From positions 2,955,501 to 3,019,500 of the forward strand of contig CP070233.1 of NCBI GenBank assembly GCA_017355425.1: DNA of 64,000 nt, written 5' to 3'. The translations under genes and the position numbers were made by a program. How positions within the stretch are numbered: the first letter of the stretch is position 1; the number at the start of each line of letters is the position of its first letter. Shown in pieces: positions 17,993 through 29,704 of the stretch. The notes below the pieces were generated by a model. It was not told the origin of the DNA. It saw only the letters and a program-made list of their open reading frames with translations, and ran no database searches. The DNA comes from Dolichospermum sp. DET69. GTDB taxonomy: Bacteria; Cyanobacteriota; Cyanobacteriia; Cyanobacteriales; Nostocaceae.

Positions 17993-19195
17993 ATGACAGA
18001 ACCACAAACACACAGAATGCCACCGCCACCGCCACCGTTACCCACGGCACAGCGACCATCAGCCCCAGCCGCACCACCTGTAGGAATGCGACCACTAGCC
18101 CCAGCCGCACCAGCAGCAATATCTTCTAAACCTTCAGGACTTACTTTGGCGCAGCTGATCAAGGAAGCATTTGATGAAGGTTACTCTGATGTTCACGTGG
18201 GAATAGGAGAAATCCCTCGCTTCCGCAGTCGCGGGGAAATTCAAACTACAAGTTATCCCGAAGCCGATAAACCGACTTTTATGGGTTGGTTGCGGGAGAT
18301 TCTCTCTGATGCAGAAATTCAAAGGTTTCAAGAACATCTAGAATTTGATGGTGCGACTCAGTATGATTTCGCCCGGGTGCGGATTAATGTGTTCGATTCC
18401 CTGCGTGGTTACGCCATGGTACTGCGGTTAATTCCTCTCAAAATTCTGTCTATGGAGCAGTTGCGATTACCACCAGTGTTTAGAGATATTTGTCATCAGC
18501 ATAAAGGCTTAGTTTTGGTGACAGGTCCAACTGGTTCAGGTAAATCCACAACAATGGCGGCGATGGTTGACTATATCAATCGGGAGATGGCCAAACATAT
18601 TATTACGATTGAAGACCCGGTAGAATTTGTCCACCAAAGCCGTAAGTCTCTAGTCAAACAACGGGAAGTAGGAATGCACACCCTGAAATTTGATAACGCC
18701 TTAAAAGCAGCTTTACGGGAAGATCCAGATTTGATTCTGGTGGGGGAAATGCGGGATAAAGAAACTGTGAATACTGCCCTAAAAGCAGCGCAAACAGGTC
18801 ACTTGGTCATGGGAACTCTGCACACTAATAGTGCTGTAAAAACTATTGAACGGATTCTCAATTTGTATTCAGGTGAGGAACAAGAGGCTATGCGTGTGGC
18901 ACTTGCTGAATCCTTGGTAGCAGTAATTGCTCAGGGTTTATGCCGCACTACAGATGGTAAACGGGCAGCTTTTCATGATGTTCTCATTAATACTGAAGCT
19001 GTTAAGGAATGGGTGAAAGATGGTAAGTATGATGAAATTGGGGAGTTAATGAAACAAGCGGGCTTTGATGGCATGGTGACGATGAATCAGTCATTGCTGA
19101 ATCTCTATCAAGAAGGGCGCATTACTGAAGAGACAGCTTTAGAAATGTCCCCCACTCCTAACGAAATGGCGCAATTCCTCCGAGGTCGTGTTTAA
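17993..19195 (+). CDS. pilT: Type IV pilus retraction ATPase PilT
   Basis: 400 residues. A Pro/Ala-rich N-terminus of ~45 residues is followed by the PilT N-domain and the secretion ATPase core: Walker A GPTGSGKST near residue 180, ITIEDPVEFVH (Asp box), LREDPDLILVGEMRD (Walker B) and QTGHLVMGTLHTNSA (His box). PilT hexamers disassemble pilin at the cytoplasmic base of type IV pili and drive twitching or phototactic motility and DNA uptake. The proline-rich head is longer than in standard PilT. The KaiB-domain gene follows closely and may be co-transcribed. Confidence 0.93.
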   Translation: MTEPQTHRMPPPPPPLPTAQRPSAPAAPPVGMRPLAPAAPAAISSKPSGLTLAQLIKEAFDEGYSDVHVGIGEIPRFRSRGEIQTTSYPEADKPTFMGWLREILSDAEIQRFQEHLEFDGATQYDFARVRINVFDSLRGYAMVLRLIPLKILSMEQLRLPPVFRDICHQHKGLVLVTGPTGSGKSTTMAAMVDYINREMAKHIITIEDPVEFVHQSRKSLVKQREVGMHTLKFDNALKAALREDPDLILVGEMRDKETVNTALKAAQTGHLVMGTLHTNSAVKTIERILNLYSGEEQEAMRVALAESLVAVIAQGLCRTTDGKRAAFHDVLINTEAVKEWVKDGKYDEIGELMKQAGFDGMVTMNQSLLNLYQEGRITEETALEMSPTPNEMAQFLRGRV

Positions 19196-19257
19196 TGGAT
19201 AATTGGTAATTGGTAAAATTCCAGTCTCAAATCTCCAGTCCCCAATCCCCAACACCT

Positions 19258-20028
19258 GTGACTCAGTTAAATTTAAATAAACTCTCTAAACCTCAGTTAT
19301 TCAAAGGTATTGCTTTGTTTACGCCTGGAGGGGATTTAATTTATTGTATTGACCCTAGTAAACAAGGACGATGGCATTTACATTTGTGTGCGGCTTTGCA
19401 GGAAATTCTCGATTTACCAGAGCCGCCACATTTTTTAGTCCCTTGTTATACTGCAACTATTGATCACTGGTTAAATCCTCGGACTCAACAAGTCCAGATT
19501 TTTGCGGAGGCTTATCCAGCGGTGATCCGGCATCAAGCTGTGTTGAATGCGATTTTTGGAAAAGGGGACTTAGCGTGGCAATCAGCACCTTGGCAGGATG
19601 GTTTGTGCGATCGCTTGGTATTATCAACTTATCGGACTACATTTGAGCAATTGTGGGAAGATCATGATTTAATTGTCCGGCTAGATTTAGCTGATTTTCC
19701 CTCACAATATCAGCAACCAGTTATCAGTAAAGAACCTGTACCACCAAATAGCCAAAGTCCTCCAGGTTATGTTTTACGCTTGTTTGTTGCTGGTCATAGC
19801 GCGAATACAGAAAAAATATTACAAAATTTGCACGAATCCCTAGAGCGATCGCTAGGATATCCTTATACTCTTAAAGTTATTGATGTTCTCACAAATCCAG
19901 AACAGGCGGAAATTGATCAAGTTTCCGCTACTCCGACTTTAGTTAAAGTTTGGCCGCATCCAATCCGGCGGATGGTTGGTAATTTAGATAATATGGATAA
20001 ACTGTTACAAATGTTAGCAGGAAAGTAG
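19258..20028 (+). CDS. KaiB-domain protein with N-terminal extension
   Basis: 256 residues from GTG 19258. An upstream TTG at 19210 would add 16 residues, but they read through a low-complexity spacer (CCAGTCCCCAATCCCC), so I prefer the GTG. The last ~85 residues (YVLRLFVAGHSANTEKILQNL, then YTLKVIDVLTNPEQAE, then VSATPTLVKVWP) are a clear KaiB / SasA-sensor thioredoxin-like fold. The first ~165 residues (LFTPGGDLIYCIDPSKQGRWHLHL...) are a domain I do not recognise. KaiB-fold domains bind KaiC-type ATPases, so a partner-sensing role is plausible, but a clock function is not shown. It is placed directly after pilT. Confidence 0.7.
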   Translation: MTQLNLNKLSKPQLFKGIALFTPGGDLIYCIDPSKQGRWHLHLCAALQEILDLPEPPHFLVPCYTATIDHWLNPRTQQVQIFAEAYPAVIRHQAVLNAIFGKGDLAWQSAPWQDGLCDRLVLSTYRTTFEQLWEDHDLIVRLDLADFPSQYQQPVISKEPVPPNSQSPPGYVLRLFVAGHSANTEKILQNLHESLERSLGYPYTLKVIDVLTNPEQAEIDQVSATPTLVKVWPHPIRRMVGNLDNMDKLLQMLAGK

Positions 20029-20058: not shown

Positions 20059-20604
20059 CGGTAAGCGTAAAACTCAGCGTCTTCAGACCTGAGATATAAG
20101 CGACCCTTCGGCTACGCTCAGGGCATCGCTCGTGCGACTTTAGTCGCCTACGTTCTTCTTGATTGATTTATCATAAAAATACCCGGTAAGTGGGAAACTC
20201 AGACACTTCAGTGCTGAGAGGGAAACGACTCGTGCGGTTTTAACCGCCTTGAATATTTTTTCATTACCGCCTTGGAGTTGGTAAATTCGGTGTACTTTTG
20301 TAATGTACTTTCAACGGGACAATTACCGATTCAAAATTCCCAACTCTGTACGCATAATGTGTTGCACTCGATGTGCCTCCCTTTCGGGGTGATGTTAGCT
20401 TCGTCAATGTTTTAAGAGCTTTTTAAACTTGCAACACTGTTTCAGTGACTTTAAAACTGTTTAATTGCAAATGACAGAGCAGGGAACTAGCTACGCATTC
20501 CGGGGTGTCGTGACTCAAAAAACGTAGTCAGTGAAGACTTAGACTGGTCAGTACAGCTGGCAATTTCTTACAAGCTCAGTCCCTTTAGGGCTGAGTTACT
20601 GACC
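20059..20604 (+). mobile_element. Coding-free IS200/IS605-type element (copy 1)
   Basis: Two tandem versions of a structured motif (CGGTAAG..GAAACTCAG..CTGAGAGGGAAACGAC..CGTG, starting at 20059 and 20184) lie at one end. The other end is the hairpin ACAAGCTCAGTCCC/GGGCTGAGTTACTGAC (20570-20603). The same two parts, in the same order, occur at 35080-35419. This matches a transposon whose tnpB has been lost, or a structured RNA unit. The family assignment is inference. Confidence 0.5.
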
Positions 20605-20873: not shown

Positions 20874-20986
20874 AAATTTGCAAACTCTACTTTCTACCTG
20901 TAGGTTTATGAATTATTAGGCAACAATGCTTATAGTTAAGTTGTTGGGTGGTGAAACACCTAATTACGTAAGTGAGGCTAATAATC

Positions 20987-21349
20987 GTGTTAAATCAAAT
21001 CAATGCATCCGATTTACTTGTTGCTTTATCTGATCAACAACAAGAAATAGTGACTGGTGGGGCTGACTTTGAACTAGCTGCTAGTAATTATGCTAACAAA
21101 GGGTCAGTTTTAATGGGAACAAGTGTCTCCGGTCCTCAAGGTAGCAGTGCCACCTCCGCAGGTCGGGCTAATACCATCCTAACTGCGGGACAAGATTTCT
21201 TAGGTCTAGGTGCAGACTTGCCCGCTGGTGTCGGAGCTTTAGGTCCAGCAACACTACCAGGAGACGCAGGAACTGCACCTACACCTGCCGTTGCAACACC
21301 TGTACCTCCTATTAATACTGGAGTTGGAAGTGTAGGAGTTCTTGCGTAA
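20987..21349 (+). CDS. Double-glycine leader peptide precursor (Pro/Ala/Gly-rich core)
   Basis: 120 residues from GTG 20987. I place the start here because GAGGCTAATAATC precedes it, exactly as GAGGCTAACAATC precedes the ATG of the sister gene at 26484. The leader MLNQINASDLLVALSDQQQE + IVTGG ends with Gly24-Gly25, the cut site for C39 peptidases. The 95-residue core has no cysteine, is rich in Gly, Ala, Thr and Pro, and ends PPINTGVGSVGVLA. It precedes the HlyD and C39 transporter genes, the expected exporters. Bacteriocin-like or signalling function is inference. Confidence 0.75.
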   Translation: MLNQINASDLLVALSDQQQEIVTGGADFELAASNYANKGSVLMGTSVSGPQGSSATSAGRANTILTAGQDFLGLGADLPAGVGALGPATLPGDAGTAPTPAVATPVPPINTGVGSVGVLA

Positions 21350-21870
21350 ATATGTGCTACTAACCCTATCCGTTGCTCTATCTTAAAACAAGATTGAACT
21401 AGGGCGACAGACTAGTAATGCGGAGCAGAATTGAAAATTAAGCATTAAAAATTTAAAAAGCAAATCACACGAGCTTTTTAGGGGCTTTTAATGATTAGTT
21501 ATTTTCGCCTCTCTGCACTGCTAGTCAACGGCTTTTTTAGATGATAAAGGGGGTTGGGGGAAATAATTTGAGCTTGCTCAACGTAAGTGAGGACTTTGAG
21601 AAAGTTTGAGCTTTTCCCCGCATTTTCTTAACGTTTGATCCGCGTTGAAGATTTGAGAAAGATAATTCCCTTCTTTAGGGCATAACTATCTCCACCCCCT
21701 TTACTAAATTATAACCTATCATCAAACTATTTTTCACGATGTGAACAAAAAAATTTGCTTGTTTTTATTTCCACTATTTTATTCCCTGAGATAGTTGATT
21801 TTAATTGCATGATCTTAGCAATTTCTATCTTAGGTCAGACTATTTTAGTCCTAACAGAAGGTGTAATACC
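21350..21870. other. 521-bp spacer before the HlyD gene
   Basis: No gene. Near 21545-21710 the segments AAAGGGGGTTGGGGG and CCACCCCCTTTA form an inverted pair ~160 bp apart, with GAGCTT-containing near-repeats inside (TTGAGCTTGCTC, TTTGAGCTTTTCC). It may be a degraded MITE. Confidence 0.45.
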
Positions 21871-23376
21871 GTGAACTCCTTACAGAGTCAAGATAATAAT
21901 TCCACATATAAGTTCAATAATCCAACTACAGAGGATTTGCATATACTAGAAGCTAATGAGTTTCTTCCCTATATCGGTAAATGGATTCATATCGGTGGGG
22001 GGGTGATGATTAGTATGTTTGTAGTTGCTGTGAGTCTTACATCTGTTCTCTATTACAATGTCACAGTCAAAGTCCCTGCAACTATCCGACCATTGGGAGA
22101 ATTACGGTTAGTTCAATCTGCAATGACGGGAACTGTAAAAAAAATTGTAGTCAAAGAAGATCAGGTAGTAAAGAAGGGAGAAATTATTGCTTTTATTGAT
22201 GATTCTCAACTGCAATCTCAAAAAAGACAACTACAAAATACTATCCAGCAAAATCAATTACAACTTATTCAAGTTGATGCTCAAATCAATCAAATCAATA
22301 CTCAAATAATTTCTCAAATTAACTTAAATGACCGCACCATTATAGCTGCACAGGCTGAATTAATTGGAACTGAACGCAACCATAAAGATCAGCAAATTAA
22401 AGCTAGTATGGAAATGACACAAGCTAAAATAACTATAGATTTAGCAAAAGAGCAACTAGCAAGATTACAACAAGAAAAGGTATTAATAGCCACGGTACAA
22501 GAAGCAGAAGCAGCCTTAAAGCTGGCTATTTTACAGCGCGATCGCTTACAAGGTATAGTAACATCAGGAGCAGTATCTCGCAGTTTAGTCGAGGAAAAAG
22601 AACAGGCTGTGAAATCGGCTCAAGCCAAATTAGAACAAGCTAAATCTGCTACTAAAAATCTCCAAGAAGAAAAAGAACAAGCTGTTAAATTAGCCCAAAT
22701 AAACTTACAAAAAGCGAAAATTGCTGTTAATCCTAGTAATGCAACTGTAACAGTAGCAATGGAAAGAATTCAACAAGAAAAAGCCAGAGGTGAAGGTAAT
22801 TTAGCTACTTTAAAAAAAGAACGAGAACTATCACTTCAACAACGTTTAGAGTTACAAAAACAACAAATTCGTACTCGTCAAGAATTGCAACAGCTAGAAA
22901 ATGAGTTAAATAAAAGTGTGATTCGCTCCCCAACTAATGGCACACTAATGCAACTTAAACTCCGCAACCCTGGACAGGTTGTACAACTCAGTGAAGCTCT
23001 TGCTCAAATTGCTCCTGTGGATGCTCCTTTAATCATCAAAGCTAACATTTCGGCTAAAGATATTGACAAAGTAAAAACAGGTCAAGCAGTGCAAATGCAG
23101 GTTTCAGCTTGTCCCTATCCAGACTATGGAACTCTCAAAGGAACTGTAAAAACAGTTGCACCAGATGCTCTAGCAATTACGCAAAATAATTCGATTATCA
23201 GTACACCCCAGATAGCTACTTACGAAATCAATATTGAACCAGAAAGTCTATTTTTAGGAAAAGGCAATCATTTATGTTATCTCAAATCTGGTATGGAAGG
23301 ACGTGCTGATATTATTTCTCATCAGGAAACTGTCATGCAATTTATTCTGAGAAAAAGCAAGTTGATCACGGATTAA
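21871..23376 (+). CDS. HlyD-family membrane fusion protein of the peptide exporter
   Basis: 501 residues from GTG 21871, preceded by AGAAGG 8 bases upstream; the TTG at 21805 gives a longer, unsupported N-terminus. One membrane helix (GGGVMISMFVVAVSLTSVLYY) follows a cytoplasmic ~65-residue head. Then come a lipoyl half-motif (TGTVKKIVVKEDQVVKKGEIIAFID), a long coiled coil (~residues 115-355, Q/E/K/A-rich), the second lipoyl half (VIRSPTNGTLMQLKLRNPGQVV) and a beta-barrel region. It bridges the inner-membrane ABC transporter to the outer envelope. It lies directly upstream of the C39 transporter. Confidence 0.88.
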   Translation: MNSLQSQDNNSTYKFNNPTTEDLHILEANEFLPYIGKWIHIGGGVMISMFVVAVSLTSVLYYNVTVKVPATIRPLGELRLVQSAMTGTVKKIVVKEDQVVKKGEIIAFIDDSQLQSQKRQLQNTIQQNQLQLIQVDAQINQINTQIISQINLNDRTIIAAQAELIGTERNHKDQQIKASMEMTQAKITIDLAKEQLARLQQEKVLIATVQEAEAALKLAILQRDRLQGIVTSGAVSRSLVEEKEQAVKSAQAKLEQAKSATKNLQEEKEQAVKLAQINLQKAKIAVNPSNATVTVAMERIQQEKARGEGNLATLKKERELSLQQRLELQKQQIRTRQELQQLENELNKSVIRSPTNGTLMQLKLRNPGQVVQLSEALAQIAPVDAPLIIKANISAKDIDKVKTGQAVQMQVSACPYPDYGTLKGTVKTVAPDALAITQNNSIISTPQIATYEINIEPESLFLGKGNHLCYLKSGMEGRADIISHQETVMQFILRKSKLITD

Positions 23377-23487
23377 ATGGGATTAAAGGATTACACAGAT
23401 TTAATAGATAGATAATATCAATTTTGATCACGGATTTAAATGGGATTACGGGATTGCACGGATTTAATACGTAGATAATACCAAGTT
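23363..23487. repeat. 62-bp imperfect tandem duplication spanning the HlyD stop codon
   Basis: TGATCACGGATTAAATGGGA... at 23363 is repeated as TGATCACGGATTTAAATGGG... at 23425, each ending GATAATA-TCAA-like. The first unit contains the HlyD stop (GAT TAA), so the gene's last codons are part of the repeat. Confidence 0.75.
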
Positions 23488-23515
23488 TATTAATTTTTGA
23501 AGTTCGATTTTTTTT

Positions 23516-25684
23516 ATGCTGAATATCTTCAAATCTGATCGAAATTATCAGTGTACTTTACAGTTAAGTGAAGAAGACTGTGGAGCAGCTTGTTTAGTTT
23601 CTATCACTAAGCATTATGGACGCTTTTTAAGTATGATTAAAAGTCGAGAAGCTGTTGGTACCGGACAATTAGGAACGACATTATTAGGTTTGAAACGAGG
23701 TTCAGAAAATCTCGGTTTTAATGCTAGAGCCGTCAAAGCTTCTCCCGAAATTGTAGATAGAATTACAGAAATTACATTACCTGCAATAATTCATTGGCAA
23801 GGCTATCATTGGGTAGTTTTATATGGTAAAAAGGGAAAAAAATACGTTATTGCCGATCCTGCTGTTGGACTTCGTTATTTGACAAAAAAAGAACTAACTG
23901 ATGCTTGGAATGGGGTAATGCTCTTATTAGAGCCAGATCCAGATCGCTTTTCTGAACAACCCCAAGAAGAATCAAAAGGGGGAATAACACGCTTTTTTCG
24001 CCGCCTTTTACCCTATCGTGGTTTGCTAAGTCAGGTTTTAATGATCAATGTTGTCCTGGGTTTACTAGCTCTAGGAACTCCTGTTTTAATTCAATTATTA
24101 ACAGATGATGTTCTCGTGCGTGGAGATGTACAATTACTCACTGTTGTAGTTTCCGCAGTTGTCGTTATGAGTTTATTTGGTGGAGGGTTGCAAGTATTTC
24201 AAGCCTTAATGATTTCTCATTTTGGACAAAGATTACAATTAGGTTTAGTTCTAGAATTTGGTCGTAAATTACTGCAATTACCTTTAAATTATTATGAATC
24301 TCGTCGCAGTGGGGAAATTACTAGCCGACTCCGAGATATTGGGGAAATTAACCAATTAGTATCACAGATTGTAATTGTTTTACCTAGCCAGTTTTTTATT
24401 GCTGTTATCTCTTTATGTTTAATGTTATTTTATAGCTGGCAATTGACAATTGCAGTTCTGTTAATCGCTGCCGTAATGACTTTATCTACTTTGCCTTTTT
24501 TACCAATTCTGCAACAAAAAACCCGCAGTCTCTTAGTTTTAGGGGCAGAAAATCAGGGTGTTTTAGTAGAAACTTTTAAAGGCGCACAAGTAATTAAAAC
24601 TACAAATGCTGCGCCTCAATTTTGGGATGAATTCCAAAGTCGTTTTGGTCGTCTAGCTAATCTTGCTTTTAGTACCGTGCAAATAGGAATTATCAACGGT
24701 ACTATTGCTAAAATTTTGTCTACAATTGGTGGTGTTATCTTGCTAGGATTTGGGAGTATGTTAGTAATTAAAGGCAATTTAAGTATTGGACAAATGTTAG
24801 CTTTTAATGCTTTACAAGTTAATGTTTTAGCTTTAATTAACTCATTAGTTAGCTTTGTTGATGACTATTTTCGTTCCCAAACCGCAGTTTCTCGATTATT
24901 AGAAGTTATTGATGCTACGCCGGAAGTAGTAGGAGGAAGTCTCAAGCCAACTGCACAAATTTCTAGTGTGGCAGATATTAATTGTTCCCATCTCCAATTT
25001 CATCACGCAGGTAGAATTGACTTATTAGATGATTTTTCTATTCAGATTCCGGGAGGAAAAGTCATTGCTTTAATTGGTAAATCAGGTTGTGGTAAAAGCA
25101 CTTTAGCTAAATTATTGGCTGGGTTATATGTACCAGATTCCGGTAATATCCGCATTGGTTTTTTAAATATCCAAGATATTGCTTTGGATTGTTACCGACA
25201 ACAAGTAGTTTATGTTCCTCAAGAACCTCATTTTTGGAGTCGGACAATTTTGGAAAACTTCCGTTTAGGAATACCTTCTATTTCCTTTGAAGACATTGTT
25301 CAAGCTTGTGATATTGCAGATGCAGATGGTTTTATCAGTCAATTACCTAATAAATATCAAACCGTTTTAGGAGAATTTGGCGCAAATCTTTCGGGAGGAC
25401 AAAGACAACGATTAGCGATCGCTCGCGGAATTCTCACAAATCCACCTATACTAATTTTAGATGAAGCTACCGCAGGATTAGACCCCATGAGTGAAGCTCA
25501 TGTTCTAGATCGTCTTTTGGAATATCGCGCAGGTAAAACCACAATTTTAATTACTCATCGTCCCAGTGTTATTCAACGCGCTGATTGGATCGTTCTCATA
25601 GAAAAAGGCCAGGTACAAATTCAAGGAACTCCTGAGACATTTTTATCGAAACCCGGAGAGCATTTACAGTTTCTAACTGTATAA
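23516..25684 (+). CDS. C39-peptidase-containing ABC transporter (PCAT) for double-glycine peptides
   Basis: 722 residues. Residues ~10-140 are a C39 cysteine peptidase: Gln16 (oxyanion), Cys22 in EEDCGAACL, a His in YHWVVLYG and an Asp in IADPAVG. Six membrane helices follow, then a nucleotide-binding domain with Walker A IGKSGCGKST, signature LSGGQRQRLAIARG, Walker B ILILDEATAGLD and the switch His in LITHRP. It cuts precursors after Gly-Gly and exports the core. All catalytic parts are intact. Five GG-leader genes lie within 5 kb on either side, the expected substrates. Confidence 0.93.
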   Translation: MLNIFKSDRNYQCTLQLSEEDCGAACLVSITKHYGRFLSMIKSREAVGTGQLGTTLLGLKRGSENLGFNARAVKASPEIVDRITEITLPAIIHWQGYHWVVLYGKKGKKYVIADPAVGLRYLTKKELTDAWNGVMLLLEPDPDRFSEQPQEESKGGITRFFRRLLPYRGLLSQVLMINVVLGLLALGTPVLIQLLTDDVLVRGDVQLLTVVVSAVVVMSLFGGGLQVFQALMISHFGQRLQLGLVLEFGRKLLQLPLNYYESRRSGEITSRLRDIGEINQLVSQIVIVLPSQFFIAVISLCLMLFYSWQLTIAVLLIAAVMTLSTLPFLPILQQKTRSLLVLGAENQGVLVETFKGAQVIKTTNAAPQFWDEFQSRFGRLANLAFSTVQIGIINGTIAKILSTIGGVILLGFGSMLVIKGNLSIGQMLAFNALQVNVLALINSLVSFVDDYFRSQTAVSRLLEVIDATPEVVGGSLKPTAQISSVADINCSHLQFHHAGRIDLLDDFSIQIPGGKVIALIGKSGCGKSTLAKLLAGLYVPDSGNIRIGFLNIQDIALDCYRQQVVYVPQEPHFWSRTILENFRLGIPSISFEDIVQACDIADADGFISQLPNKYQTVLGEFGANLSGGQRQRLAIARGILTNPPILILDEATAGLDPMSEAHVLDRLLEYRAGKTTILITHRPSVIQRADWIVLIEKGQVQIQGTPETFLSKPGEHLQFLTV

Positions 25685-25858
25685 GTAGCCGGACAAAATT
25701 AAATTCACTCGTTGAGAGAGGGAACACCGGAACAGGGAACAGGGAACAGAAAAATCAGTTGTGTAATTAATTGTGTCCCATTACTTAAATCAATGTTTTC
25801 AAAAATTTCCTAGCGATATGCACTCTTCGTAAGATCCAGTCAGTAAATCGCAAACGCC

Positions 25859-25881
25859 GTAGGGGCGCAGGGCCTGCGCCC
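25859..25881 (+). repeat. REP-like palindrome, identical inverse of 13460-13482
   Basis: GTAGGGGCGCAGGGCCTGCG + CCC, an exact 23-base reverse complement of the fbp-zwf copy. It lies ~85 bp before the next precursor gene. Confidence 0.85.
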
Positions 25882-25965
25882 TCAATAATATTCCATCAAA
25901 GGCGATAACCGCTATATTAGTCTATCACCTAACCTCAAATAATGACTTATACAAGGAGTAATAAT

Positions 25966-26220
25966 ATGTCTAAGAATACTCAATTATTTAGATATCTTTC
26001 TAATGCAGAACAAGAATCTTTTGTTGGTGGACAAATGTTTCCTATGTTAAATCTATTTACTGAAGGTAAGTTATTCTTCCAAAACACTGATCTGGAAACT
26101 GAAGGAAAAAGTGATTTAACTCTTGCTTCAGGTGATTCTACTTCACAAACTACCAAATATAAATTATCCCAAATGACCATGGCACTTTCTTTCACATTTG
26201 GATTGTTAATGAGTTGGTAA
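25966..26220 (+). CDS. Double-glycine leader peptide precursor with hydrophobic C-terminus
   Basis: 84 residues from ATG 25966, which has AAGGAGT 8 bases upstream. The leader is short (MSKNTQLFRYLSNAEQESFV + GG, Gly21-Gly22) but keeps the L-S-x-x-E-Q-E pattern. The 62-residue core has no cysteine and ends in a membrane-like helix (LSQMTMALSFTFGLLMSW). A hydrophobic end like this is seen in some pore-forming unmodified bacteriocins, but the resemblance is general. It is the first gene after the C39 transporter, 281 bp downstream, and a terminator hairpin follows. Confidence 0.65.
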   Translation: MSKNTQLFRYLSNAEQESFVGGQMFPMLNLFTEGKLFFQNTDLETEGKSDLTLASGDSTSQTTKYKLSQMTMALSFTFGLLMSW

Positions 26221-26286
26221 TTTATTACCCTATTTTCTAAATAATTTCTTTTCATGAAATAGCCAAAATTGAATTTAAACATTTTT

Positions 26287-26321
26287 TGTAGAGAGAAAAT
26301 TTTATTTTTCTCTACATTTTT
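26287..26321 (+). terminator. Probable Rho-independent terminator after the 25966 precursor
   Basis: TGTAGAGAGAAAA and TTTTTCTCTACA pair around a short AT loop, followed by TTTTTG. Lies ~65 bp beyond the stop. Confidence 0.65.
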
Positions 26322-26390
26322 GTCGCTGAGTTAAATAAATAGTTTTATTTAAATATAACTATACCCTAAGAGAAATTTAAGTTTTGCAAA

Positions 26391-26410
26391 TTTATAACCA
26401 AAGAATCATT
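26391..26410 (+). promoter_or_regulatory. Conserved upstream element of GG-leader precursors (copy 1)
   Basis: TTTATAACCAAAGAATCATT, exactly 93 bases before ATG 26484. The same 20 bases with one change occur exactly 93 bases before ATG 28553. A TTATAAAA box (possible -10) lies downstream of both. Likely a shared promoter or activator site. Confidence 0.65.
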
Positions 26411-26483
26411 TTTTTCTAATTATTAATAGTTATAAAAGAAGCATAGGTGTTATTGATCTATTCATAACTTGAGGCTAACAATC

Positions 26484-26720
26484 ATGTCAAACCACATCAT
26501 TCAATCTGATTTAATCGTTGATTTATCGCTAGATGAACAAGAAATTCTCACTGGAGGAATGTGCAGTAAGGAAGACAATAAGAGTGATGGGGATAAATCT
26601 AAGATTTCTCCCTCTAATGATCAAGAAGATAGTTTAGATAAAAGTAGTAACCCTAAATATCAATTCTTGGTCTATCGTCCCATAGTAAACAATCCCAAGA
26701 CTTATATCCGAGCTAGTTAA
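26484..26720 (+). CDS. Double-glycine leader peptide precursor (Asp/Lys/Ser-rich core)
   Basis: 78 residues from ATG 26484, with GAGG 8-11 bases upstream; a TTG at 26469 is in frame but lies in the conserved GAGGCTAA leader. Leader MSNHIIQSDLIVDLSLDEQE + ILTGG with Gly24-Gly25. The 53-residue core begins MCSKEDNKSDGD, is strongly hydrophilic, has a single cysteine and ends NPKTYIRAS. The leader is closest to that of the 20987 gene. It shares the -93 element with the 28553 gene, and a strong terminator follows at 26808. Confidence 0.72.
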   Translation: MSNHIIQSDLIVDLSLDEQEILTGGMCSKEDNKSDGDKSKISPSNDQEDSLDKSSNPKYQFLVYRPIVNNPKTYIRAS

Positions 26721-26807
26721 ACTATCTCTTTTCATTATGATTCATAAATGACTTTGATGAGTTGACACGTAGCAACTTTAAAATATTCAAAGTTATAGCT
26801 CTAATTT

Positions 26808-26848
26808 TGCACCCATCAAAGTATGTAAATATCATGGGTGCATTTTTC
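26808..26848 (+). terminator. Rho-independent terminator after the 26484 precursor
   Basis: TGCACCCAT and ATGGGTGCA form a perfect nine-base stem, immediately followed by TTTTTC. It isolates this precursor from the next one. Confidence 0.8.
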
Positions 26849-27501
26849 TTGGCAAAAAAAGTTAAGTAAAATTATTTAAACATGAAATAGCCTTAAATGC
26901 TTATTACAAATTTATTCCTATATGAAGGCATTAATTAATATTCCCAAAGAAATAAGAATATTTCTATATATATAACTAAGGGATAATTCTAATTTTATAA
27001 AACATAGTTATAAATAAATTAACAGAAGATAAGGTGATCCACCTAAGAGATTATTTAATTCGATTATCCAAGCTCTGAACTATTAATTGAGGGATCATTC
27101 TAAAAAGTAGTAATACGGATTAGATGTGAACCAGACCACCCTGAGTGTAGTCAAAGGGTAAACGTTATTTAAGTCATGACACCTTGGGATTCGCTAGTTC
27201 CATGATCTGTCGGTACTGATTAAACATTCTGAAAGGAAAGTGTCTTTACCTTAACAAGCTTAGATAACTAGGTTGAAGCAAACTTTACTTAGAAATAATG
27301 ACTGGTCAAACCGACCGCAAACGTCAATAGTAGGAAATATTTTTCTGCTATTGACTACGAAACACTACATTATTCTGGGATTAGGACCTATGGCAACTAC
27401 TAGAGACAACCATACCCTTTCTCTTTTCTCCTAATCAACTTTCTCTCTTTCCTAATCAATAGGAAAACAATTTCACTTTCCAGTAAGCAAGGAACATAAT
27501 T
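26849..27501. other. 653-bp spacer between two precursor genes
   Basis: No gene found. AT-rich with A/T runs at first. It contains a hairpin GTCAATAGTAGGAAA/TTTCTGCTATTGAC around 27326-27358 and a CTTTCTCTTTTC-rich stretch before the next gene. The -93 element is absent here. Confidence 0.5.
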
Positions 27502-27705
27502 ATGTTAACCCAAAATATTGCAACTGATTTACTTGTAGAACTAGCCCCAGAAGAACAACAACTTTTATCTGGGGGATGTCAACAATCCCTCCCTTGTTGT
27601 AAACCTAAAAAACAAAAATGTGGATGTGGTGAAGAATACTCAAAATCTGATCAATTTCCACCCTCTGACAAGTATGAGACCTATCCTAATAATGGCGACA
27701 GTTGA
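27502..27705 (+). CDS. Double-glycine leader peptide precursor, cysteine-rich core
   Basis: 67 residues. Leader MLTQNIATDLLVELAPEEQQ + LLSGG with Gly24-Gly25, the most canonical leader of the set. The core starts CQQSLPCCKPKKQKCGCGEE: five cysteines and five lysines in the first 17 residues, then a hydrophilic tail. The stop TGA is formed by TTGACACTCCCC, the end of an IS605-type hairpin, so the natural C-terminus may have been cut by insertion. AAGGA precedes the ATG. Disulfide-linked or metal-binding core is inference. Confidence 0.72.
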   Translation: MLTQNIATDLLVELAPEEQQLLSGGCQQSLPCCKPKKQKCGCGEEYSKSDQFPPSDKYETYPNNGDS

Positions 27706-27973
27706 CACTCCCCGGTCTAAAGACACGGGGATTCTATAGAGAGTTTCAGTCTATATCCCTCAGTTATCCCAGTTTCAGGCAGGGATCCTTAAATATTTGG
27801 GTTCTTGCCCTGATCCTGTTTGCCATTACTGGCAGAATCATATCTGACAAGGACTTGTGTGTACACCGTAACCTCGCTCTTCGAGAGGGGGCTATGATAT
27901 ACCTCATAAGAGCAGGAAGTGCTGTAAACTTCCTAAAAGGACGGGGCTTGACCCATGTTTCGCTCCGCTCCAC
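27702..27973 (-). mobile_element. Remnant of an IS605-type element end
   Basis: Starts with TTGACACTCCCCGGTC, pairing with GACACGGGGATTC, the kind of hairpin seen at the end of the tnpB element at 57511 (TTGACATCCTCCCC). The next ~240 bases hold no convincing protein; an apparent 115-codon frame does not resemble a gene. I read it as the non-coding tail of a lost tnpB element. The inner boundary is unclear. Confidence 0.45.
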
Positions 27974-28459
27974 ACAAGGCTTGCTACCCCCGCTCCCTGC
28001 TCCCTTTCCCTCTGCCTCTTCCGATGAGGAGAAATTTTCAATTACTTGATGTAAAGAATTAGCAATATCTTAGTTTCTGATCTTCTCAGAAATATTTACC
28101 TCCACGGCTGAGAAATAAAATAGGATCTGCTAGAATTCTTGCCATAATTTTCTCCTCTATTCTTTTTTTATCAAACAGAATTCAGGAGTCACAGAGTCAG
28201 AATTCAGTTGGGTATTCTGTGCGAGTGGCGGATGAATAACCGGCGTTTTTGCACCCCCACCAAATCGCAGATTTGGTGGTCTTTAATCAGTCGCAGGTCT
28301 GAATCCTCGACTGATTGATTCTGACTCGGTGGCTACTGACTCGGTGACTCCTTCTTCAAATTGGGCTTTTAATTTGGGAATTACCCATAATTGTCAAAGT
28401 CTATTGTCAGTAAGAAAATAAATTTATTTGAGTCAAAAGATAGAAATTGTAAATTAATA
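27974..28459. other. Spacer with several hairpins before the last precursor gene
   Basis: Contains CCACCAAATC..GATTTGGTGG near 28258 and AATCAGTCGCAGG..CGACTGATT near 28287, plus repeated ACTCGGTG/GAGTCA words near 28320. No gene seen. Confidence 0.45.
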
Positions 28460-28479
28460 TTTATAACCATAGAATCATT
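28460..28479 (+). promoter_or_regulatory. Conserved upstream element of GG-leader precursors (copy 2)
   Basis: TTTATAACCATAGAATCATT, 19 of 20 identical to 26391-26410 and also exactly 93 bases before its start codon. TTTATAAAAAG follows at a similar distance. Confidence 0.65.
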
Positions 28480-28552
28480 AAAAATATTAAAATAAGGTTT
28501 ATAAAAAGATTGTAGGTAAACAATATTTATCAACCAATGGAGCCAAATAATT

Positions 28553-28708
28553 ATGTCTGTTAAAATTCAAAACATCAAATTAGATTTGCTTGAGGAATTA
28601 TCAACTGAAGACCAACAACTTATTTCTGGTGGTCATGGTCGTTGGGGCAGTGGTCGTGGTCCTAGGGGCGGTAGCTGGGGCTGGGGTCCCCGCCGCCGAT
28701 GGTGGTAA
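28553..28708 (+). CDS. Tiny double-glycine precursor with Gly/Arg/Trp core
   Basis: 51 residues, easily missed. Leader MSVKIQNIKLDLLEELSTED + QQLISGG, with Gly26-Gly27, matches the other leaders. After the predicted cut the 24-residue core starts HGRWGSGRGPRGG and ends PRRRWW: eight Gly, six Arg and five Trp, with no acidic residue or cysteine. Arg/Trp-rich cationic peptides commonly disrupt membranes, so an antimicrobial role is a reasonable inference. The -93 element, a GGAG-like site (AATGGAGCC) and a canonical leader all argue it is real. Exported presumably by the C39 transporter 2.9 kb upstream. Confidence 0.75.
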   Translation: MSVKIQNIKLDLLEELSTEDQQLISGGHGRWGSGRGPRGGSWGWGPRRRWW

Positions 28709-28749: not shown

Positions 28750-29655
28750 TTAATTTTTCTGAATTTGCTCTTTTTTCTCAGCTAGTAATTCACCAATCCA
28801 ATCAAGTAAAATCGGATTTACTAACTCAGGAGCTTCATCTTGAGGACAGTGTCCCACTCCTTCTAAAGAAATAAACTTTTCTACAGTGGGAAAATCGGCT
28901 AACTCTTTACCTAAATCAATAGGTTCCCAAGGGTCAGCCGTTCCCCATAAAATAATTACTGGACAAGATAATACAGGTAATAAGTCTTCCGGTAAAGGGC
29001 CACTGGAATAAGCAGTAAAAGCCAGAAATACAGCCGCAGCACCAGGATCTTTTGCTGGTGTCATCAAAATATCTATTAACTCGTCTGTCACCGTTTCCCT
29101 ATTAGCATAGGCTTGTAAAAGAATCTTTTTAACGGTTTGCGGTTGTGCCAGGCGATTAAAAAAGAAATCACCTACTGGTTTAATTGCCAAAAAGTTTTGG
29201 AGAATTGGCGCACCAAACCGCTTTATCCAAGGTAAAGCCACCCGTTTACGATCATGTAATAACCGCAAAGAACAGTTAAGCAAAGCAGTTCCTAAAGCCA
29301 TATCTGGGCTAATTACCGCAGCTTGCATAGCGACAATACAACCAATAGAATTTCCCACCAAAAAAGCCGGTTCACCTACCACTTCTTGACAAAAATCCGC
29401 TACTTGTTGTCCCCAAGTTTCTAGGGTATAGGTAATTTTTTCCCCTGGGTTGGGTTTAGCTGAACCCCCAAAGCCAATTAAATCAATCGCATAAACCCGG
29501 CAATTTGTAGCTAAAGCTGGGATATTTTTCCGCCAATGCCCCCATGATGCACCAAATCCATGTATTAAAATCACAGCAGGTCCAGTAGTACCTTGTGTTT
29601 GGTAACAAATAGGGAAATCTTGCCAAATCCAGGTTTTTGTAGAAGTTCTCATCAT
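28750..29655 (-). CDS. Alpha/beta-fold hydrolase
   Basis: 301 residues from ATG 29655; a TTG 42 bases earlier is possible. ILIHGFGASWGHWR (oxyanion loop), VGNSIGC (nucleophile Ser), WGTADPWEP (Asp) and GVGHCPQDEAPE (His) complete a standard triad. The sequence resembles the cyanobacterial/plant branch that includes pheophytinase and chlorophyll dephytylase, so an esterase acting on a chlorophyll derivative is possible, but the substrate cannot be read. It follows kdpC on the same strand with ~50 bp between and may be transcribed with the kdp genes. Confidence 0.8.
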   Translation of the reverse strand: MMRTSTKTWIWQDFPICYQTQGTTGPAVILIHGFGASWGHWRKNIPALATNCRVYAIDLIGFGGSAKPNPGEKITYTLETWGQQVADFCQEVVGEPAFLVGNSIGCIVAMQAAVISPDMALGTALLNCSLRLLHDRKRVALPWIKRFGAPILQNFLAIKPVGDFFFNRLAQPQTVKKILLQAYANRETVTDELIDILMTPAKDPGAAAVFLAFTAYSSGPLPEDLLPVLSCPVIILWGTADPWEPIDLGKELADFPTVEKFISLEGVGHCPQDEAPELVNPILLDWIGELLAEKKEQIQKN

Positions 29656-29704
29656 AAATACAATTCTGAATAAATAAAACTTGATGCTTCTTCTCAATAA
29701 CTAA

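Follow-up and report, generated by a model that had tools for sequence, protein, structure and literature searches.

A cyanobacterial double-glycine peptide export cassette with a conserved structured element, a candidate small RNA complementary to a precursor ribosome site

In a survey of 58 cyanobacterial genomes, Wang, Fewer and Sivonen (2011; PMC3140520) described 145 bacteriocin clusters with 290 precursors, the functions of most products being unestablished; this paper, like the others compared below, is cited from a partial text. Its group III clusters combine a short exporter, in which a C39 peptidase is fused to an ATP-binding cassette (ABC) transporter, with HlyD and several double-glycine (GG) precursors (3.89 on average) of diverse core sequence, and SurA, LanM and a second ABC gene belong to other groups. 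We analysed a 64-kb stretch of the Dolichospermum sp. DET69 genome (hereafter the window; 64,000 nucleotides at G000:C1:2955501-3019500 in a genome of 6.04 Mb and two contigs), which contains a cassette of this known kind, group III: it encodes a short C39-ABC protein, HlyD and several GG precursors (A to E; Table 1), and no LanM, SurA, S8 peptidase or second ABC transporter was found within it in the list of open reading frames (ORFs) or the domain scan. An earlier interpretation made from the letters alone (the sequence-only reading) had described a C39 exporter cassette of cyanobacterial type with five small genes whose leaders end in Gly-Gly. These genes, their positions and their leaders are confirmed, as are the HlyD gene (PF13437) and the exporter gene (PF03412, PF00664 and PF00005). 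A structured RNA in the gap between the A and HlyD genes had been overlooked; neither this RNA nor a fixed order of precursor slots is mentioned in the available text on group III. We think it probable that the locus is a type I cassette through which small proteins are secreted, and that it carries a regulatory RNA of its own.

ComC, a GG peptide, leaves the cell through a C39 exporter. Anti-Shine-Dalgarno small RNAs with C-rich loops carry CCUC in an apical loop and pair through it with a ribosome site, and pairing with a Shine-Dalgarno sequence normally blocks initiation. The RNA proposed here would differ from these general regulators in being apparently dedicated to one locus and in matching over 10-12 nucleotides (nt), beyond the common GGAG core. 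What may be its nearest tested parallel known to us is the control of comC in Streptococcus pneumoniae by csRNAs (PMC4507080), small RNAs that are likewise complementary to a peptide-precursor mRNA, which they repress; there five similar RNAs act under CiaR, whereas here one RNA lies inside the export locus, and the likeness is one of description, with no claim of common origin. Among secreted proteins, EbfG1-4 of Synechococcus elongatus are also several small GG proteins secreted via a C39 exporter, PteB (PMC4997328, PMC9981879), although their authors report mature EbfG to be without homology to other cyanobacterial proteins. Precursor A belongs with the CTB family of bacteriocins (NF038167), scoring 76.6 bits against a cut-off of 32, whereas B, C, D and E of this strain stay below it (19.3, 24.1, 14.9 and 15.7 bits).

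To place the locus among its relatives we used 80 named loci, the best 80 of 298 in a scan for the exporter, of which 60 with an exporter at least 76% identical served for synteny. Short "ORFs" recur on both strands of the A-HlyD gap (10-17 loci) because a structured element of about 175 nt lies there (21545-21720 in the window). nhmmer found 91 copies of it in 53 loci including the window, on the same DNA strand throughout; 50 stand before HlyD, 11 of them with no leader gene detected to the left, and of the 41 elsewhere 39 start 6-93 nt past the stop codon of a leader gene. The upstream copies form one clade (support 0.997 in a midpoint-rooted tree). We rejected the idea that a copy follows every A gene, since L030 has eight A genes and one copy, and also that degraded copies follow B to E in the window, where the best score was 11.8 bits with filters off.

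The element is conserved and structured, with a covarying fold. In an alignment of 48 rows, 84.8% of cells are paired, against 44.7-56.8% when the fold is slid along the alignment, and 98 cells changed on both sides of a pair, against 43.4 +/- 5.9 in shuffled alignments, a count reached by none of 500 shuffles. Two cruder measures were not clearly above the shuffles (22 double-change pairs, reached by 54 of 500, and 58 further pair types, reached by 228 of 500). When 30 of 33 downstream copies were aligned alone (one of the other three is partial, one is weak and one was left out by oversight), the outer stem, hairpin 1 and hairpin 3 were recovered, at -28.1 versus -0.4 +/- 0.7 with shuffled columns. 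A covariance model gave 83 matches in 81 sources and a single match in the strain's own genome. It found 25 matches in 19 of 60 related genomes, own genome included, of which 24 lie within 3 kb of this exporter by hand comparison, and across the phylum it matched 29 of 386 genomes (again including the own genome), all Nostocaceae.

No family of Rfam 15 matches the element above its gathering score, HEARO alone being found elsewhere in the region, and the best match beside the element below threshold was rliB (18.5 bits of 40); we therefore rejected its identity with a known Rfam RNA. As far as Rfam 15 and the open-licence literature were searched, a dedicated RNA with matching ribosome sites is undescribed, and a term search that included HlyD and bacteriocin had no match in the available text of a paper dealing with small RNAs conserved among heterocystous cyanobacteria. 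The gap is intergenic and rich in hairpins, and HEARO RNAs, which are mobile and associated with HNH nucleases, occupy the same locus, as might be expected if the element were a mobile repeat or the scar of a terminator. Its single match in the genome, its orthologous place in 50 loci as one clade and its compensatory changes make that origin extremely improbable.

The loop of the element suggests what it does. On the plus strand the loop is identical to the ribosome-site motif of precursor A, ACGTAAGTGAGG, and is therefore complementary to it in an RNA read from the minus strand. This 12-mer of the A Shine-Dalgarno region has exactly two sites in the 6.04-Mb genome, the A motif and the RNA loop, and its pattern read backwards occurs once. 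The loop is nearly invariant among relatives, with GTAAGTGAGG on the plus strand in 49 of 50 upstream copies. When the loop arm was paired with the 45 genes of the window, A ranked first (-21.9; next -18.1), and the first 8 nt of the arm are unpaired with a predicted probability of 0.81-1.0. An unpaired loop complementary to the target's ribosome site, as in anti-Shine-Dalgarno RNAs, is thus present in the predicted fold and the sequence.

The match extends to precursor genes of the relatives. Leader genes were counted if they had a defined core and no less than 60 nt of sequence before them (327 in all). A motif match of at least 10 of 12 lies upstream of 120 of 277 leader genes in relatives, compared with none of 613 other ORFs of at least 150 amino acids (aa) and 34 of 5,540 windows drawn at random from these loci, some of which may cover true sites. 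Of 49 loci with the RNA, 47 have the exact 10-mer at a leader-gene ribosome site; among 11 without the RNA, one does (Fisher 9e-9, relatedness ignored). Ten loci that have the gap but no detected upstream copy all match at 9 or less, and so the exception must be L069, where only 211 nt of contig precede the exporter and the RNA's place falls outside. Loci whose exporter is less than 76% identical lack the exact 10-mer altogether (0 of 15). Before A genes it stands in 44 of 73 cases in loci with the RNA and in 0 of 12 without, and before other leader genes in 32 of 82 versus 2 of 20; by family the counts are 0 of 32 for B, 1 of 25 for E, 4 of 7 for C and 1 of 7 for D. The 61 loci contain 140 exact occurrences, of which the RNA accounts for 49 and leader genes for 84; of the seven others, six precede a start codon and an ORF of 8-24 aa, perhaps a decayed leader gene. 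Where the loop departs from the others at the base before GTAAG, some targets change with it: in L040, L042, L048 and L073 both have T.

The upstream element is apparently an independent small RNA gene on the minus strand (Table 1), judging by its flanks and substitutions. Of the 50 upstream copies, 49 keep a perfect minus-strand TATAAT at a distance of 7-8 nt from the outer stem. The 8 nt past the other end of the stem form a U-rich stretch when read as minus strand in 42 copies, and when read as plus strand in 7. Among pairs common to the foldings of both strands, wobble departures in the upstream copies favour the minus strand (16 pairs versus 6). Downstream copies favour the plus strand (19 pairs versus 5; p 0.004-0.044 over four settings), and we read them as probable parts of plus-strand transcripts.

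Several observations weigh against a minus-strand RNA acting at precursor ribosome sites. The two strands fold equally well as judged by energies, the upstream sign test is weak by itself (p 0.04-0.23 over eight settings), and the -35-like box, looked at in the window alone, matches at just four of six positions. A model-fitted alignment of the upstream copies leans to the plus strand (93 versus 79 wobbles), although it had been fitted to a plus-strand model and unfitted alignments gave the reverse lean. The shared sequence could also mean that the element acts as a plus-strand RNA, in the 3' region of the A mRNA or the hlyD leader, which mimics the ribosome site and binds the same regulator. 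Such a role would fit the plus-strand identity of loop and ribosome site, the place of the other copies just past leader genes, their wobbles (19 of 24 pairs) and the model-fitted counts; against it, the upstream copies keep the minus-strand TATAAT and U-rich flank, their wobbles favour the minus strand on unfitted alignments, and 11 loci have the element although no leader gene was detected on its left side, so that we regard a plus-strand role as quite unlikely.

With respect to the target, pairing of the whole RNA is stronger for at least two other genes of the window (44182, -37.2; 19210, -33.5) than for A (-33.1); where the RNA is present in the locus, 29 of 73 A genes lack the exact 10-mer; and in L019, L053, L057 and L068 a change of the loop base before GTAAG is unmatched by the targets. 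In this strain the motif is at A only, C, D and E matching at 6-8 of 12 positions. One of the 25 covariance-model matches in related genomes lies away from the exporter (G030:C22, 43 bits). Finally, the copies share ancestry and the 50 loci therefore represent far fewer independent events, with few losses of the RNA across loci.

On the reading that we prefer, a minus-strand small RNA would present UCCUCACUUA in its apical loop and pair with the Shine-Dalgarno region of A and, in relatives, also with those of variable downstream precursors. Since pairing of this kind normally blocks initiation, our proposal is repression by the RNA, of A in this strain and of A together with the variable precursors in relatives, until some signal removes the RNA; B and mostly E, which lack the motif, would escape its control. 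The C39 domain would cut after the GG during export, and HlyD would link the exporter to an outer-membrane channel, as is known for these families. Once released, A and B would probably have an extracellular role, either as matrix or surface components of beta structure or as allelopathic peptides. A fuller circuit can be imagined in which the downstream plus-strand elements are built-in sponges for the small RNA and so set the secreted mix. Predicted duplexes between the small RNA and a downstream element of the same locus were stronger than with shuffled targets in nine of nine pairs, but the elements are homologous and on opposite strands, and such strength would also be expected by descent alone; we consider this circuit unlikely. 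Only its repression half would operate in this strain because a downstream copy is undetectable here.

All five precursors carry a recognisable leader. A leader hidden Markov model (HMM) trained on 201 leaders from relatives, with the window's own left out, scored the five genes at 39.0, 37.5, 34.3, 33.2 and 17.6 bits, the next ORF of the 64 kb reaching 6.7, and with genus relatives also removed (153 leaders) they scored 16.2-37.4 bits. The maximum among 31,213 ORFs from 40 simulated Markov copies of the window was 8.3 bits. These scores reject chance occurrence, and conservation of the leaders in relatives, whose lack had been named beforehand as grounds for giving up the claim, is what we found. 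Longer in-frame starts are possible for A, B and C but probably merely read the ribosome-site region as codons, so the starts given in Table 1 are likelier. No similarity was found among the five cores at E up to 10, in agreement with the sequence-only reading, and homology between the A and B cores was rejected, a profile comparison aligning the leader only (28 columns). Pfam has no match for A to E and only weak, mixed matches for members of the B family, and 44 of 52 B proteins of relatives match NF038167 at E<=0.01 (best 4.3e-8).

Unrelated as they are, the cores occupy recurring slots across Nostocaceae. HlyD lies directly upstream of the exporter in 58 of 60 loci, an A-family gene in one to eight copies is found upstream in 42 of the 57 with enough sequence, and B follows the exporter immediately, at a median gap of 37 nt, in 40 of 59. 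An E-type gene is present in 27 of 52, and the alpha/beta hydrolase seen in the window was found beyond the cassette in 36 of 52. The interval between B and E is occupied by changing families; on our reading of the list, many of these have a short, basic, beta-like tail joined to a stretch that is acidic or of low complexity. The families hold recurring slots and therefore the set is not arbitrary. The earlier picture of a diverse cocktail stands as regards the unrelated cores, but not as an arbitrary mix.

B is an exporter-linked family. Its profile matches in 32 of 386 phylum genomes, 30 of them Nostocaceae, and by hand comparison in the genomes covered by both scans all 18 strong matches (E below 1e-10) sit at most 332 nt from an exporter. 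B is not a constant part of the locus, being missing in 19 of 59 loci and decayed in L029. In this strain B is shortened by a 20-nt deletion, common to L019, which removes its C-terminal amphipathic helix. For E, profile building failed to model the family, which was grouped by short-word similarity and composition; proteins in the E slot are 41% Gly with repeats in 31 copies. In L020 to L085 (mostly at 13.0-15.4 kb) the repeats are Gly-aromatic (WGGGW, GYGGL, GHHGY) and variable in number, and these proteins resemble each other in composition and place, not in sequence. Within a genus-level clade, pooled ratios of non-synonymous to synonymous change (dN/dS) were obtained for four cores (A, 0.42; B, 0.41; D, 0.72; E, 0.32), that of E from pairs of about 29 codons each; C, with a single pair, yielded none. 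Selection on the A, B, D and E cores in this clade is purifying. The window and its closest partner, L019, differ by just 3 (A) and 4.5 (B) synonymous changes, too few to judge selection.

What the products do outside the cell can be read in two ways. Five unmodified antimicrobials released by one exporter, a bacteriocin cocktail, would accord with the CTB bacteriocin name of the A family, with the term bacteriocin clusters for group III (PMC3140520) and with cores that are small, diverse and partly cationic. The A and B cores are, however, conserved across genera, and the tested cyanobacterial GG proteins that we encountered in the partial texts build biofilm. Nor was a widespread immunity-like gene seen among non-leader ORFs of at least 35 aa in 61 loci, in a survey that could miss shorter or fast-evolving genes; its top three clusters of non-leader ORFs, from 17, 12 and 10 loci, all overlap the RNA element, and no other cluster listed extends to more than 7 loci. 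We consider killing somewhat unlikely as the role of the set.

We lean instead, tentatively and at slightly less than even chances, to a secreted matrix or fibre set in which A and B would be beta-hairpin subunits and E and the C/D slots linkers, comparable to EbfG1-4 with PteB. That the Gly/aromatic, acidic or Cys-rich proteins are such linkers, and that all together make surface or biofilm material, we hold just as tentatively. EbfG1-4 support biofilm, their secretion needs the C39 exporter and three of them, EbfG1-3, form amyloid (PMC4997328, PMC9981879). An AlphaFold model of the window's A has two strands of 22 residues (27-48 and 51-72; predicted local distance difference test, pLDDT, about 85) and one of the B protein of L081 two strands of 20 residues (38-57 and 63-82; about 79 in the better part), and the Gly repeats of the E type would also fit. 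Both models are partial (predicted template-modelling score, pTM, 0.40 each), and the window's own B lacks the helix of the B that was modelled. Searches of solved structures gave no match for B and four chance-level matches for A. Nodularia nsp31980, called a CTB bacteriocin in one paper and listed in another among the 50 strongest gene starts (25,978 reads), agrees with a matrix role in so far as it can be likened to A by the CTB name alone. The cassette proteins were not found in the available texts of the EXCRETE paper and an Anabaena exoproteome paper. In view of the recurring syntenic slots and the predicted A and B hairpins, a matrix role seems at least as likely as killing.

The sequence-only reading had also proposed that the peptides leave by one exporter and act unmodified. 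From synteny the five precursors likely use the adjacent cassette exporter, but its sole use is a surmise in a genome that holds eight C39 proteins, four of which, the window exporter included, are at least 59% identical to it. At L129 (G000:C1:1009000-1025000) an A-like and B-like pair lies beside another short C39 exporter, in the order A-B-exporter-HlyD, and the RNA model has no match there. Two other close exporters adjoin candidate precursors whose leaders are of different types, and a LanM gene lies beside one of the two. At L130 (G000:C1:317000-333000) four similar small genes lie beside another C39 exporter and HlyD, with leaders of a different GG type ending in AQAAEIISGG or EQAAEIISGG. 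L131 (G000:C2:28500-44500, on the 200-kb contig) is a lanthipeptide-like cluster with LanM, a C39 exporter, HlyD and a candidate precursor of 76 aa with a Cys/Ser/Thr-rich core and another leader type.

Absence of a modifying enzyme from the cassette is borne out: in the list of ORFs of at least 50 aa there is, besides the seven genes, no ORF above 115 aa in 20.9-28.7 kb, and one of the short ORFs there is a degraded mobile-element remnant. The precursors are likely unmodified, but this cannot be deduced firmly from the locus alone because the genome has two LanM proteins (DUF4135; C2:33530 and C1:2880000) and one YcaO (C1:4760775) elsewhere. The two LanM enzymes could in principle act from a distance and make the precursors lanthipeptides. 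No LanM adjoins the window precursors, the genome's LanMs being only those two; the LanM of the 200-kb contig is accompanied by an exporter of its own and by a candidate precursor of another leader type, and the A and B cores of this strain contain no Cys, all of which makes modification in trans very unlikely.

Table 1. Features of the export locus and of the candidate RNA in the window.
Feature	Position	Strand	Evidence or remark
Ribosome-site motif ACGTAAGTGAGG of precursor A, nine bases before GTG	20966..20977	+	Sequence identity to RNA loop
Precursor A, GG leader, Gly/Ser/Asn/Pro-rich core, start GTG	20987..21349	+	NF038167 CTB family bacteriocin above cut-off
Candidate small RNA, about 157 nt	21545..21701	-	Outer stem, three hairpins, anti-Shine-Dalgarno loop; both ends predicted
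Anti-Shine-Dalgarno apical loop CCUCACUUACGU of candidate RNA	21581..21592	-	Complement of ACGTAAGTGAGG
TATAAT, -10 box of candidate RNA	21708..21713	-	6/6 match
GTGAAA, -35-like, 4/6 to TTGACA	21737-21732	-	18 nt upstream of -10 box
HlyD-type membrane fusion protein	21805..23376	+	ORF and PF13437 match
C39 peptidase-ABC exporter (PCAT), 722 aa, short type without CAP_ED	23516..25684	+	PF03412, PF00664, PF00005
Precursor B, exporter-linked family	25966..26220	+	Leader HMM, family profile
Terminator-like hairpin after B	26287..26316	+	Pattern match only
Precursor C, acidic/Lys-rich core, FLVYRP tail	26484..26720	+	ORF, leader HMM
Precursor D, Cys-rich core	27502..27705	+	ORF, leader HMM
Precursor E, Gly/Arg/Trp-rich core	28553..28708	+	ORF, leader HMM, composition
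Alpha/beta hydrolase closing the locus	28750..29697	-	Domain match; syntenic in relatives

HlyD more likely starts at GTG 21871 than at the TTG of the longest ORF. In the exporter, 99% identical to that of Dolichospermum sp. ST_sed8, C39 occupies residues 11-142 and is followed by the ABC domains, and CAP_ED had no match among the 20 families listed in the domain scan. HlyD and the exporter are the only ORFs longer than 125 aa from 20.03 to 28.75 kb, and the hydrolase is not thought to be part of the export system. Two imperfect copies of a 53-nt repeat lie in the HlyD-exporter gap (23373-23488). To the left, 19210-20028 encodes a 272-aa protein with a KaiB domain at its C-terminus only (residues 190-269), downstream of an ATPase gene at 17993 that we take to be PilT-like. 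Two HEARO RNAs lie inside the cassette region, a solo copy at 20389-20603 (-) and one at 27126-27288 (+), one of the two scoring 77.2 bits, slightly below the cut-off of 83; such insertions may account for part of the long gaps. The copy below cut-off is followed by a remnant of 53 aa (27273-27434). Over 30 aa this remnant shares 57% identity with the beginning of an ORF of 433 aa, presumably IscB-like, at another place in the genome. Genome-wide there are 70 HEARO matches at E<=0.001 in about 6 Mb, and three of them, including the solo cassette copy, score identically (152.9 bits), which suggests recent spread.

Little is known of the timing or role of the products of such clusters. A small RNA encoded in the locus, with a match of 10-12 nt to precursor ribosome sites, would give a direct handle on how they are switched and, if true, would be the counterpart in cyanobacteria of the way csRNAs control comC. 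With their recurring slot order and predicted beta-hairpins, the products also allow a testable alternative to being called bacteriocins.

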